Origin: Syntrophaceae bacterium UBA6109
GTDB taxonomy: Bacteria; Desulfobacterota; Syntrophia; Syntrophales; UBA6109
Reading direction: 5' to 3'
Assembly (NCBI GenBank): GCA_002428445.1
Contig: DIWJ01000045.1
Location: 1 to 9,218, forward strand
DNA: 9,218 nt
Position 1 is the stretch's first letter, and each line of letters starts with the position of its first letter. Made by a program: the position numbers and the translations under genes. Of this stretch, positions 780 through 9,195 are shown one piece after another. The notes below the pieces were generated by a model. It had not been told where the DNA came from. It did no database searches and saw only the letters and a list, made by a program, of their open reading frames with translations.

Positions 780-1331
780 TCATCTCCCGTCCGTCAGGGC
801 AGCCACTTTCAGCCGGACGATAAGCTCCTTTGGTTCCCGATAGTTTTTTGCCCTCACATCCAGTTCTCGGATCATGAAACAGGGGGTGTGCGTCTCGATC
901 GCAAGAAGCGTGTCGTTCAATGCCTGAATATCGGGCAGCACGGCATCGAAACCGGCGCCGACCAACAGGAACTTCCCGCTCTTTTCGGGCTTGTCGACTT
1001 GCTCGCTGGATATCGTTCCACCTCTGCCCGCAATCATTCCCTTCACCGCATTCTGCAAGGCCGCGGCAGCAGAGGCGCGGGTTGGCGCATCGATGATTTT
1101 GGATCGATGCGCCTTTGCAGATTCTCTCAGCAATGCGATTTTTTCGTCCAGCTGCGGTTTTTGCGATATCATTTGAATGTGTTTTTCAAGAATCCTGCTC
1201 TTTGCCGCCCGCAGGTCTTCGAGAGCCGACAGGTCCGACTGAATCCCGACATAGCCGTATTGATAGATCCATAAACCGAGGAGCGCGGCAGTGATAGGGA
1301 CGCAAAATGCCATGAGCCGACTTTTTCTCAT
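780..1331 (-). CDS. gspM: GspM, probable internally initiated product
   Basis: GspM is a small bitopic inner-membrane protein that pairs with GspL and stabilises it. From the ATG at 1331-1329 the product would be 183 residues. It has a basic N-terminus (MRKSRLMAF), one membrane helix at about residues 7-24, a coiled coil at about 30-80 (rich in Leu, Lys and Glu) and a C-terminal alpha/beta domain ending KELIVRLKVAALTDGR. This is the usual GspM size (about 160-200) and layout. The AAGG repeat directly upstream (1357-1342) is a purine-rich tract that could serve as its ribosome-binding site. In this sequence the same frame also continues from gspL, so GspM could be made as part of the fusion, by internal initiation, or both. 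It ends in TGA one base before gspC. Confidence 0.6.
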   Translation of the reverse strand: MRKSRLMAFCVPITAALLGLWIYQYGYVGIQSDLSALEDLRAAKSRILEKHIQMISQKPQLDEKIALLRESAKAHRSKIIDAPTRASAAAALQNAVKGMIAGRGGTISSEQVDKPEKSGKFLLVGAGFDAVLPDIQALNDTLLAIETHTPCFMIRELDVRAKNYREPKELIVRLKVAALTDGR

Positions 1332-2864
1332 CACTCGCTGCCCTTCCTTCCTTCCTTCTTCTTGTCCCGCGCCCCTCAGTTCCATTTTCATGACGAACCG
1401 ATCGGCTTTCATTACGGAATCCCTGACAGTTGGCGCCGCAAATTCAACCTTCCTGAATAGAGTCGACGCCTCGATTCCCGGCAGGAACTCCGCAGGCGAT
1501 GTCGTCGCAAGACCCTCGATATCGACGGTTGCCGCCGAGATCCGTATTCTCGAGAGCCAGGAAGTCTTCGGCAGAATTGCTGTCAGTTCTTTGATGACTG
1601 TGAGAACCCCAGGGCTCTTCTTCCGCAAGTCCGCAATGGAGTTGATCTCGCCATCCAGCGCGTCGATGTCCTTCTGCAGCAACTCAATCTTCCGGATCTC
1701 ATCCTTGCGGAGTGCGATCTGGCGTTCAATTTCCTGAAGCTTCGCCCTTTCGATCTGCAGAGGCGCGACTGCGCAGGCAATGCCCAGGACCGCAAGCGCC
1801 AGCAGCAGGAGAGCCGTGATCATTACAGGCGTCCTGGCGGTATGATGTCTGCCTTTCGAGAGCAGATTTGTCGCCACGGCTTTCGGCCACAGGCATTCCA
1901 CCAGGCCCCCGAGGGCAATGTGAGAAATCCCCTTCAATCCCGCCGGAAAACGGCGGGCGATCTCGCGATCGCTTACGGTTCGGATCGGCAGGGGCGCCCG
2001 GGCCGCCAGTTTTTCCCGATCCATGCTGTTCAGAAAAATTATGCATGAGCCGGGCGGTGCACCGCATTTCCTGATCTTTTCGACCAGAGAGGACATTTCG
2101 AAAACGATCTTCCCGATCCTTGCATCCTCATCTTCCGTTTCGAACCTCGCGTTGGCAGCGCGCGAAACGCAACCATCGATGACGTGGCCCAGTTCATAAT
2201 CATCCCCGTTGGCCACCAGATAAATGACGTTCGAGCAACCGGACACGAAGTGGAGAAGATTCGCCGTCGCCGAAGGATGCAGGGTAATCCTGTCGACCGG
2301 GAGTCCTTTGGCGCCGAGGGCATCGATGTACGGCTTTATGAGATCACACCTTGCAGCGGCAACCGTCACGGAAAGCCATCCGTTCCTTTCGTTCAGCAGC
2401 CTGAAATCGAAAAACGCATTCGCGGGGTTCAAAGGCGTAAACCTGTCAAGTTCGTAGGAAACGACGCCGGCCAGATTTTCGTTTGCGGCGGACGGAAGAT
2501 CCACGGCCCTGATGACCGCCCATGCCTTGGGGATGGAGAGCGTTATCGGCGTTCGGATCGCCCTGCATTCGCCGACGAACGAGGAGACGCGGGCGGCAAG
2601 GACGTCGGGCGAGGGATATTGCCCTTCCGCCAGCGCGCATTCCCGGTATTGCTCTATCTTGATGCGCGACAGGAACCTGCTTCCGTACGCCATCGACATG
2701 CCCCCGGCATGGATGGAAACAAGAATGTCCCGCCGGGGCGAAACGATTTCGTCGGCAAGACTGAAGGTGAGCAGCCTACGAAGCGCCCTGCAGCCCCGGA
2801 CAGCCGTTTCCATGCGGGGAAGAGAAGCCATTCTCATCTTGTCATACAATGCTTGTGCGGTCAT
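780..2864 (-). CDS. gspL: GspL-GspM in-frame fusion (T2SS platform proteins)
   Basis: One uninterrupted 694-residue frame holds two proteins that are normally separate. Residues ~46-335 resemble the actin-like cytoplasmic domain of GspL, which recruits the ATPase GspE. A membrane helix follows at ~346-368, then a coiled coil (~370-415) and a PilN/GspL-type periplasmic ferredoxin-like domain (~418-497). At 497-511 the frame crosses a linker (RGAGQEEGRKEGQRV) encoded by an AAGG tetranucleotide repeat. From M512 a typical GspM begins. The ATG at 2864 overlaps the gspK stop (ATGA). Loss of one 4-bp repeat unit would end GspL at residue 509 with a TGA (1333-1331) that overlaps the gspM ATG. The fusion is directly visible; whether it is a real gene, a phase-variable state, a recent mutation or an assembly error cannot be told from sequence alone. 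Confidence 0.85.
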   Translation of the reverse strand: MTAQALYDKMRMASLPRMETAVRGCRALRRLLTFSLADEIVSPRRDILVSIHAGGMSMAYGSRFLSRIKIEQYRECALAEGQYPSPDVLAARVSSFVGECRAIRTPITLSIPKAWAVIRAVDLPSAANENLAGVVSYELDRFTPLNPANAFFDFRLLNERNGWLSVTVAAARCDLIKPYIDALGAKGLPVDRITLHPSATANLLHFVSGCSNVIYLVANGDDYELGHVIDGCVSRAANARFETEDEDARIGKIVFEMSSLVEKIRKCGAPPGSCIIFLNSMDREKLAARAPLPIRTVSDREIARRFPAGLKGISHIALGGLVECLWPKAVATNLLSKGRHHTARTPVMITALLLLALAVLGIACAVAPLQIERAKLQEIERQIALRKDEIRKIELLQKDIDALDGEINSIADLRKKSPGVLTVIKELTAILPKTSWLSRIRISAATVDIEGLATTSPAEFLPGIEASTLFRKVEFAAPTVRDSVMKADRFVMKMELRGAGQEEGRKEGQRVMRKSRLMAFCVPITAALLGLWIYQYGYVGIQSDLSALEDLRAAKSRILEKHIQMISQKPQLDEKIALLRESAKAHRSKIIDAPTRASAAAALQNAVKGMIAGRGGTISSEQVDKPEKSGKFLLVGAGFDAVLPDIQALNDTLLAIETHTPCFMIRELDVRAKNYREPKELIVRLKVAALTDGR
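1342..1357 (-). repeat. AAGG tetranucleotide repeat (4 copies) at gspL-gspM junction
   Basis: On the coding strand four perfect AAGG units follow two AAG units. The repeat length is not a multiple of three, so gain or loss of a unit by slippage shifts the gspL frame. With one unit fewer, gspL ends at TGA 1333-1331, overlapping the gspM ATG (TGATG). With the present number the two genes are fused. The repeat also looks like a ribosome-binding tract for gspM. Four units is short for a classical contingency locus. Confidence 0.8.
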
Positions 2865-3920: not shown

Positions 3921-3976
3921 CATGCTTCGACAAGCTCAGCATGACAAATGGATGTCACCCTGAGCCTATCGAAGGG
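3921..3976. repeat. inverted pair of REP-like repeats between gspJ and gspK
   Basis: The unit GCTTCGACAAGCTCAGCATG (from 3924) faces a second copy on the opposite strand, CCTTCGATAGGCTCAGGGTG (reading down from 3975). The two 22-base units, both ending in GAC, agree at 17 positions, so the region can fold into a long imperfect hairpin with a loop of about 8 bases. Each unit also has a small hairpin of its own (GCTT/AAGC). CTTCGACAAGCTCAG-type palindromes are familiar as scattered intergenic repeats in many bacterial genomes; I recognise this by eye and have not searched. It is the only large gap in an otherwise packed operon and could attenuate or stabilise the message between gspJ and gspK. 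Confidence 0.65.
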
Positions 3977-8550: not shown

Positions 8551-8943
8551 TCAGGAGATCACTCTCAAACTGCAGTACTTCTTTATCGGATCAAAATCCC
8601 TGTCGTTGTGAAGCAATACTGCACCATGAGTAATAGCCACTGAGGCAATCATGCAGTCCACCGGTTTGCGTATGGCTAGACCTCGGCGCCGAAGTGAACG
8701 ATACAGTTGCGCTGACATCACAAATACGTCTCGATTCATCGGCAGGTACAAGAGGTCATCGAAAAACGACAGCGTTTTTCGATAAGAGACATCGTCGCGG
8801 ATCCCCTGCAACACTTCCGTCAGGATAATCCCGCACGTGCAAACGTCTTCGCCCTCATTTAACAGTCGCTCAAGTTCGGCGACCTCCAGAGTGGGTTTGT
8901 CGCCCAAGAAGTCGATCCATACGGTGGTATCGACAAGCACCAT
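8551..8943 (-). CDS. vapC: VapC toxin, PIN-domain ribonuclease
   Basis: VapC toxins are Mg2+-dependent RNases, typically cutting tRNA or rRNA, held inactive by the VapB antitoxin. The product is 130 residues, the normal PIN-domain length. It begins MVLVDTTVWIDFL with the first acidic residue D5. The other expected active-site residues are present: E43 in LTEVLQG, D96 in KPVDCMIA, and D114/D116 in HNDRDFD. All four conserved acidic positions are intact, so the toxin should be active. The frame is open further upstream, but the extra residues would overlap vapB. The ATG at 8943 lies two bases after the vapB stop and gives the canonical PIN start, so it is preferred. Confidence 0.92.
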   Translation of the reverse strand: MVLVDTTVWIDFLGDKPTLEVAELERLLNEGEDVCTCGIILTEVLQGIRDDVSYRKTLSFFDDLLYLPMNRDVFVMSAQLYRSLRRRGLAIRKPVDCMIASVAITHGAVLLHNDRDFDPIKKYCSLRVIS

Positions 8944-8945
8944 TG

Positions 8946-9146
8946 TCAGCCGCGCTCCTTGCGCCATTCGTCCAGATTGCCTTCCCAGAGGATTTTGCCT
9001 TTTAATTCCAGGATCTTCTTCTGCCGATCGTGCCGCAACAGTTCCTCCAAAGCATGTTCGATCAAGGCGCGCTGTGTTTTGATGCCCGTAGCTTGCAGGC
9101 ATTTCTTCACCAGTTCGTCATTGAGCACGATATTTGTTCTCCCCAT
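8946..9146 (-). CDS. vapB: VapB-family antitoxin
   Basis: VapB binds and blocks VapC and usually represses its own operon by binding DNA through its N-terminal half. The 66-residue product fits the VapB antitoxin family. The N-terminus MGRTNIVLNDELVKKCLQAT is the DNA-binding half. A helix follows (RALIEHALEELLRHDRQKK), and the C-terminal tail has the typical ILELKGKILWEGNLDEWR pattern that grips the toxin. The frame extends 8 codons upstream to 9170, but GGAGGTGA lies in that extension, five bases before the ATG at 9146. That strong ribosome-binding site fixes the start. It is followed by vapC after two bases. Confidence 0.9.
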   Translation of the reverse strand: MGRTNIVLNDELVKKCLQATGIKTQRALIEHALEELLRHDRQKKILELKGKILWEGNLDEWRKERG

Positions 9147-9163
9147 TTCCGTCACCTCCAATC

Positions 9164-9195
9164 TATACACACACTATCATGATCTAGTGTGTATA
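9164..9195. promoter_or_regulatory. palindromic operator of vapBC
   Basis: A 32-bp inverted repeat with arms ACACACTA (9169-9176) and TAGTGTGT (9185-9192) around TCATGATC lies directly upstream of the vapB ribosome-binding site. Pairing extends outward to TATA on both sides with a two-base slip. Such a palindrome in front of vapB is where VapBC complexes bind to repress their own promoter. A possible -10 (TATAGA, 9167-9162) overlaps its proximal edge; no good -35 is visible. Confidence 0.65.

Follow-up and report, generated by a model that had tools for sequence, protein, structure and literature searches.

The stretch of DNA analysed here, called the window, is 9,218 nt long and carries on its minus strand a T2SS operon in the order gspE-F-H-I-J-K-L-M-C. 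The genes gspH, I, J and K encode minor pseudopilins; the letters gspH and gspI were assigned by gene order and the prepilin motif. The features that concern the gspL/gspM junction and its surroundings are the following.

8297-6759, minus strand: gspE
6755-5562, minus strand: gspF
780..2864, minus strand: joint frame of gspL and gspM (PilN domain at residues 423-495, T2SSM_b at 587-689, NCBIfam GspM at 524-691)
1332..2864, minus strand: gspL part (PilM/PilN-like), with a hydrophobic segment at residues 342-373, a periplasmic PilN-like domain and a charged tail
1342..1357, minus strand: tandem (AAGG)4 tract, an exact array, in the GspL tail and upstream of the gspM start codon
1341..1357, minus strand: purine-rich stretch, putative Shine-Dalgarno region of gspM (duplex energy -8.4 kcal/mol)
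1331..1333, minus strand: +1-frame TGA at the position equivalent to the gspL end in relatives (from the junction sequence and the relatives' C-termini)
1329..1331, minus strand: gspM ATG overlapping the +1 TGA as TGATG (from the junction sequence and the start of homologue P0121)
780..1331, minus strand: gspM part of 183 aa, counted from its own ATG, with a hydrophobic segment at fused residues 515-535; closest homologue P0121
778-119, minus strand: gspC, 219 aa, with weak NCBIfam model matches and no Pfam family

Between 119 and 6755 on the minus strand, there are three short prepilin-type genes plus gspK, and the major pseudopilin gene gspG was not recognisable among them. No gspD was seen in the 9,218-nt window. 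Upstream of gspE, the window harbors a gene pair for a VapB-like antitoxin and a PIN-domain (VapC-like) protein (8551-9170, minus strand). The gspK/gspJ interval contains an imperfect palindrome (3925-3974, plus strand) of two 22-nt arms, 82% complementary, with a 6 nt spacer, which we take to resemble REP-like extragenic palindromes; neither of two strings taken from the palindrome recurred exactly in the other loci.

An earlier note on this DNA had read gspL as running through four AAGG units straight into gspM to give a protein of 694 residues, and the open reading frame and the junction sequence confirmed this reading. A single minus-strand frame from 2864 to 780 is open over all 694 codons, with gspL followed in frame by gspM, and the minus-strand letters at the junction are GGA CAA GAA GAA GGA AGG AAG GAA GGG CAG CGA GTG ATG AGA. 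The coordinates given earlier for the out-of-frame TGA (1333-1331) and for the gspM ATG that it overlaps (1331-1329) were likewise correct. Translated directly from the window, the +1 frame ends in ...KEGRKGSE, followed by two stops.

Both parts of the frame were recognised by protein family models. The GspM part scored 75 bits against the curated cut-off of 60 bits of NCBIfam NF040576 (residues 524-691), and the GspL part scored 38.3 bits against the cut-off of 22.8 of PF05137, with its PilN-like domain at residues 423-495. The pilM model matched the GspL part weakly and far below its cut-off, and a search of solved structures gave two weak matches only, both to PilM. In their sources, homologues of the GspL part bear the names PilN-domain protein or general secretion pathway protein L, and the features by which GspL is recognised, namely a PilN-like periplasmic domain, a PilM-like cytoplasmic part and adjoining gspK and gspM genes, were all found. 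The locus is like the GspL/GspM platform of other T2SS in its K-L-M-C order, its PilN-like and T2SSM_b/GspM matches and the start and length of GspM, but differs in that the two coding frames are joined. Another comparison is with translationally coupled gene pairs whose stop and start codons overlap as TGATG. The window is like them in having TGATG at 1333-1329, a form also found in the related locus L007, but its gspL translation does not stop there.

Comparison of the gspL C-termini of close relatives, which the earlier note had proposed, showed that all five closest GspL proteins (P0001-P0005) end at the expected place. These proteins, of which P0004 comes from a MAG named Syntrophales bacterium, have 492-509 aa and 86-92% identity to the GspL part. 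Their C-termini read ...GAGQEEGKRGNE (two proteins), ...GAGQEEGKRGSE (two) and ...GAGQETEKRSSE (one), so that the last residues are EGKRGNE, EGKRGSE and ETEKRSSE, respectively, while the +1 frame of the window gives EGRKGSE. Because the +1 frame matches the ends of the relatives, the expected GspL tail is still encoded in this frame of the window, over the array and on its downstream side. The five were compared as proteins and their junction tracts are known through the protein only; as judged in this way, their tails do not encode the AAGG tract. Among the 120 GspL matches listed of 146, the lengths were 492-543 aa. The tail past a conserved DRFxxKME-like motif, found in 110 of these 120 proteins, had 11-38 residues (median 18), and the longest tails (P0044, P0081, P0088, P0094 and P0104) were rich in Lys/Glu and held low-complexity stretches of Lys, Glu and Pro. 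The GspL tail appears to be a free stretch encoded by purines, where tandem repeats can arise. On the other side of the junction, the closest GspM homologue (P0121) has 93% identity and 183 aa and starts at the same methionine as the gspM of the window.

The junction was also compared at the DNA level. From 47 related loci, 42 had a GspL C-terminus (none was found in L027-L031), and removal of the duplicates L004, L005 and L023 left 39 distinct junctions. These loci are distant, with 29-45% identity to P0004 over the best-matching stretch; the best values were 41% over most of the length and 45% over a partial match. In 39/39 junctions gspL has its own stop and gspM is out of frame with gspL (+1 in 36, +2 in 3), and the (AAGG)4 tract was absent from all 39. 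L007, which had the best E-value among the genome loci, shows the layout CAAGAAGAAGGAAAGGTCAAACCGTGATGA, very like that of the window; its DNA shares the CAAGAAGAAGGA...TGATGA layout with the window but has no array. For each locus, the start codon closest to the gspL stop was taken as the gspM start, although it is not in every case the likely one: in L007 it is a GTG one codon ahead of the ATG, and in 9/39 loci it is located downstream of the stop. The frame counts are independent of this picking, and the duplex energies depend on it. In 27 of the 39 loci, the picked start precedes the gspL stop by 11-17 bases (by 14 bases in 23 of them). A long gspL/gspM overlap is common in the loci; in the window and in L007 the overlap is of the short TGATG form.

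A search of genome contigs for DNA of close relatives returned three distant loci only, and a search of viral contigs, plasmids and phages returned none. In further genome sets, matches were found at E <= 1e-3 in 2/2 and 27/46 genomes, the latter including weak matches, and in sets searched at the stricter E <= 1e-60, in 8/395, 1/5 and 12/155 genomes.

The earlier note had named a fusion common to the close relatives as the outcome that would speak against phase variation. This outcome was looked for and did not appear, and no conserved gene-fusion form was found in the relatives either: the GspM part (residues 512-694), searched against proteins whose length was 0.55-1.75 times that of the fused protein, matched none of 6246 candidates, and none of the 39 loci was fused. 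The same part alone, searched against 1713 candidates, gave 44 separate GspM proteins; these protein searches reach only relatives that share exact five-residue words with the query. The long frames of L016-L018 and L038 (650-844 aa) were considered as fusions and rejected, as gspL ends normally in them, in L038 as read from the translation, and the additional codons are on the upstream side. Since the two genes are out of frame in 39/39 loci and none of the 6246 proteins matched, the fusion appears to be confined to this sequence.

The suggestion that a normal gspL-TGATG-gspM overlap was turned into a fusion by four extra bases agreed with the separate gspL of the relatives, the matching tail in the +1 frame and the start of P0121. 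We consider it likely that an ancestral TGATG pair was joined by the gain of one unit in (AAGG)4, a slippage frameshift that may be real or artefactual, and this estimate covers both a real mutation and an error. A single gain of four bases in the tract, in the lineage or in the assembly, is the most economical account. In the ancestral state, gspL and gspM would have been two genes overlapping as TGATG. The purine-rich end of gspL encodes the charged tail, whose length is variable in relatives, and the same stretch lies at the position expected for the gspM ribosome-binding site. Extra bases worth one AAGG unit carry gspL past its stop and into the gspM frame, and they would have arisen by slippage during replication in the cell or population that was sequenced, an error of reading or assembly being less likely.

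Such an error, in which the cell would have the normal overlap without the extra four bases, forms a sub-case of the one-unit gain, and we hold it as a tentative possibility. It is consistent with the finding that all relatives examined are unfused and that the fused protein of the window itself was absent among the large-database matches listed. The core subunits of the T2SS are, moreover, usually kept intact. However, single reads can cover an array of 16 bases, and no other frame break was visible among the T2SS genes of the window, which argues against an error-rich assembly.

The earlier note had further proposed that the fusion could switch back to separate genes and that the repeat length could tune the assembly of the whole T2SS. 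The reversible switch gained no support from our comparison, because the tract is absent at the junctions of the relatives examined, length variants were not seen and four units are borderline; the tuning gained none for the lack of a tract or length variants among relatives and because the fused product is topologically implausible, as discussed below. A phase variation in which the unit number reversibly flips the two genes between fused and separate, and so switches or tunes the T2SS, is improbable in our estimation. The window resembles the simple-repeat phase-variable genes of H. influenzae and Campylobacter in having a tract with a non-3 unit within the open reading frame, at a place where the unit number sets the frame. 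Passages of an H. influenzae survey count tetranucleotide tracts from 3 units, with 4 in its Table 3 (PMC2651432), and this threshold leaves some room for phase variation. On the other hand, four units fall under the cut-off of at least 5 units given in passages of a Campylobacter survey (PMC6321876), and the H. influenzae tetranucleotide tracts named in the passages of the former survey have 8-33 units (PMC2651432). In contrast to those genes, the window has four units only, and neither a shared tract nor length variants were seen at this locus among the relatives (39 junctions by DNA, the five closest by their protein tails). Moreover, gspL encodes a core subunit of an envelope machine and not a surface antigen.

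The rarity of the array depends on the scale that is considered. Three AAGG units occurred in 0/200 dinucleotide shuffles of the window, and the 47 related loci, with 200,562 bases when overlapping loci are counted twice, contained no tetranucleotide array of at least 4 units, so the array is above chance at the scale of the window. Three arrays of three units were found in these 47 loci. One of them shows the repeat type of the window in a shifted phase (AGGA x3, L002 at 2447), and it sits about 1 kb beyond gspM, outside gspL/gspM and so not at the junction. At the scale of a genome, one four-unit tract is not remarkable when compared with M. tuberculosis, for which passages of a repeat study give four units as the longest tetranucleotide repeats, with two occurrences (PMC2430213).

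A variant of phase variation would take the AAGG tract, as code for the GspL tail and as the gspM ribosome-binding site, for a low-rate contingency locus that turns the T2SS off and on by gain and loss of a unit. The gain would tie the platform proteins together and turn the T2SS off in a few cells, which could, for example, escape T2SS-dependent phages; GspM would still be made from its own start, and the loss of a unit would restore the T2SS. Loss of the T2SS can indeed pay, as passages of a Ralstonia study describe spontaneous gspL and pilD mutants that are phage-resistant (PMC9765573). With such selection by phage, the contingency locus is conceivable though unproven, and we think it very improbable. 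It was also considered, and rejected, that the number of units tunes the ribosome-binding site of gspM: an added unit keeps the distance between the last AAGG and the ATG, so little effect would be expected.

A stable functional GspL-GspM fusion, which would hold both subunits in one chain at a fixed 1:1 ratio, is hardly credible, although no stop interrupts the joint frame and the GspM part shares 93% identity with an intact homologue. According to passages of a study on Dickeya, GspL and GspM interact directly via their periplasmic domains and spans, which favors such a chain, but both are single-span proteins with periplasmic regions whose spans insert N-in/C-out in reporter fusions (PMC3815138). 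Two N-in/C-out spans in series would leave the last domain cytoplasmic, and so the fused chain is unlikely to replace both proteins. The fused protein of the window has two hydrophobic segments, at residues 342-373 and 515-535. The 15 residues preceding the second segment hold 5 K/R and 3 D/E, and the following flank holds 0 K/R and 3 D/E. The chain would be outside after span one, and span two would return inward with its positive flank on the outer side and the GspM domain in the cytoplasm. As the segment 515-535 scores 1.72, barely above the cut-off of 1.6, this argument on topology depends in part on homology. In one continuous chain, the GspM domain would probably end up on the wrong side of the membrane, and no second fusion was found among the 6246 candidates.

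Programmed +1 frameshifting or transcriptional slippage on the array, yielding a GspL that ends at 1331 together with a longer chain, is barely conceivable: a Shine-Dalgarno-like stretch lies just upstream of the alternative stop and +1 is the frame needed, but there is no 0-frame stop codon after the array and no long homopolymer run, and the arrangement is kept in no relative examined, gspL having its own in-frame stop in 39/39 loci.

If the one-unit gain is real, its consequences can be considered from the sequence. The region upstream of the gspM ATG gave -8.4 kcal/mol against a typed anti-Shine-Dalgarno sequence, and the related loci gave -0.2 to -11.7 kcal/mol. Internal initiation at the gspM ATG may still supply GspM. 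The GspL made from this template would carry GspM as an unwanted extension, with a second span of the wrong polarity. With some normal GspM and no normal GspL, the T2SS would be impaired rather than tuned.

If the reads showed mixed unit numbers, this would be the first known repeat-driven switching of a T2SS core subunit, as none was found in our literature search, which covered mostly titles and the openings of abstracts. The fusion has little wider meaning if it reflects an error or a slippage confined to this sequence. It illustrates that a ribosome-binding site inside the purine-rich tail of an upstream gene can drift to a tandem repeat and may become a slip site that fuses the two genes.
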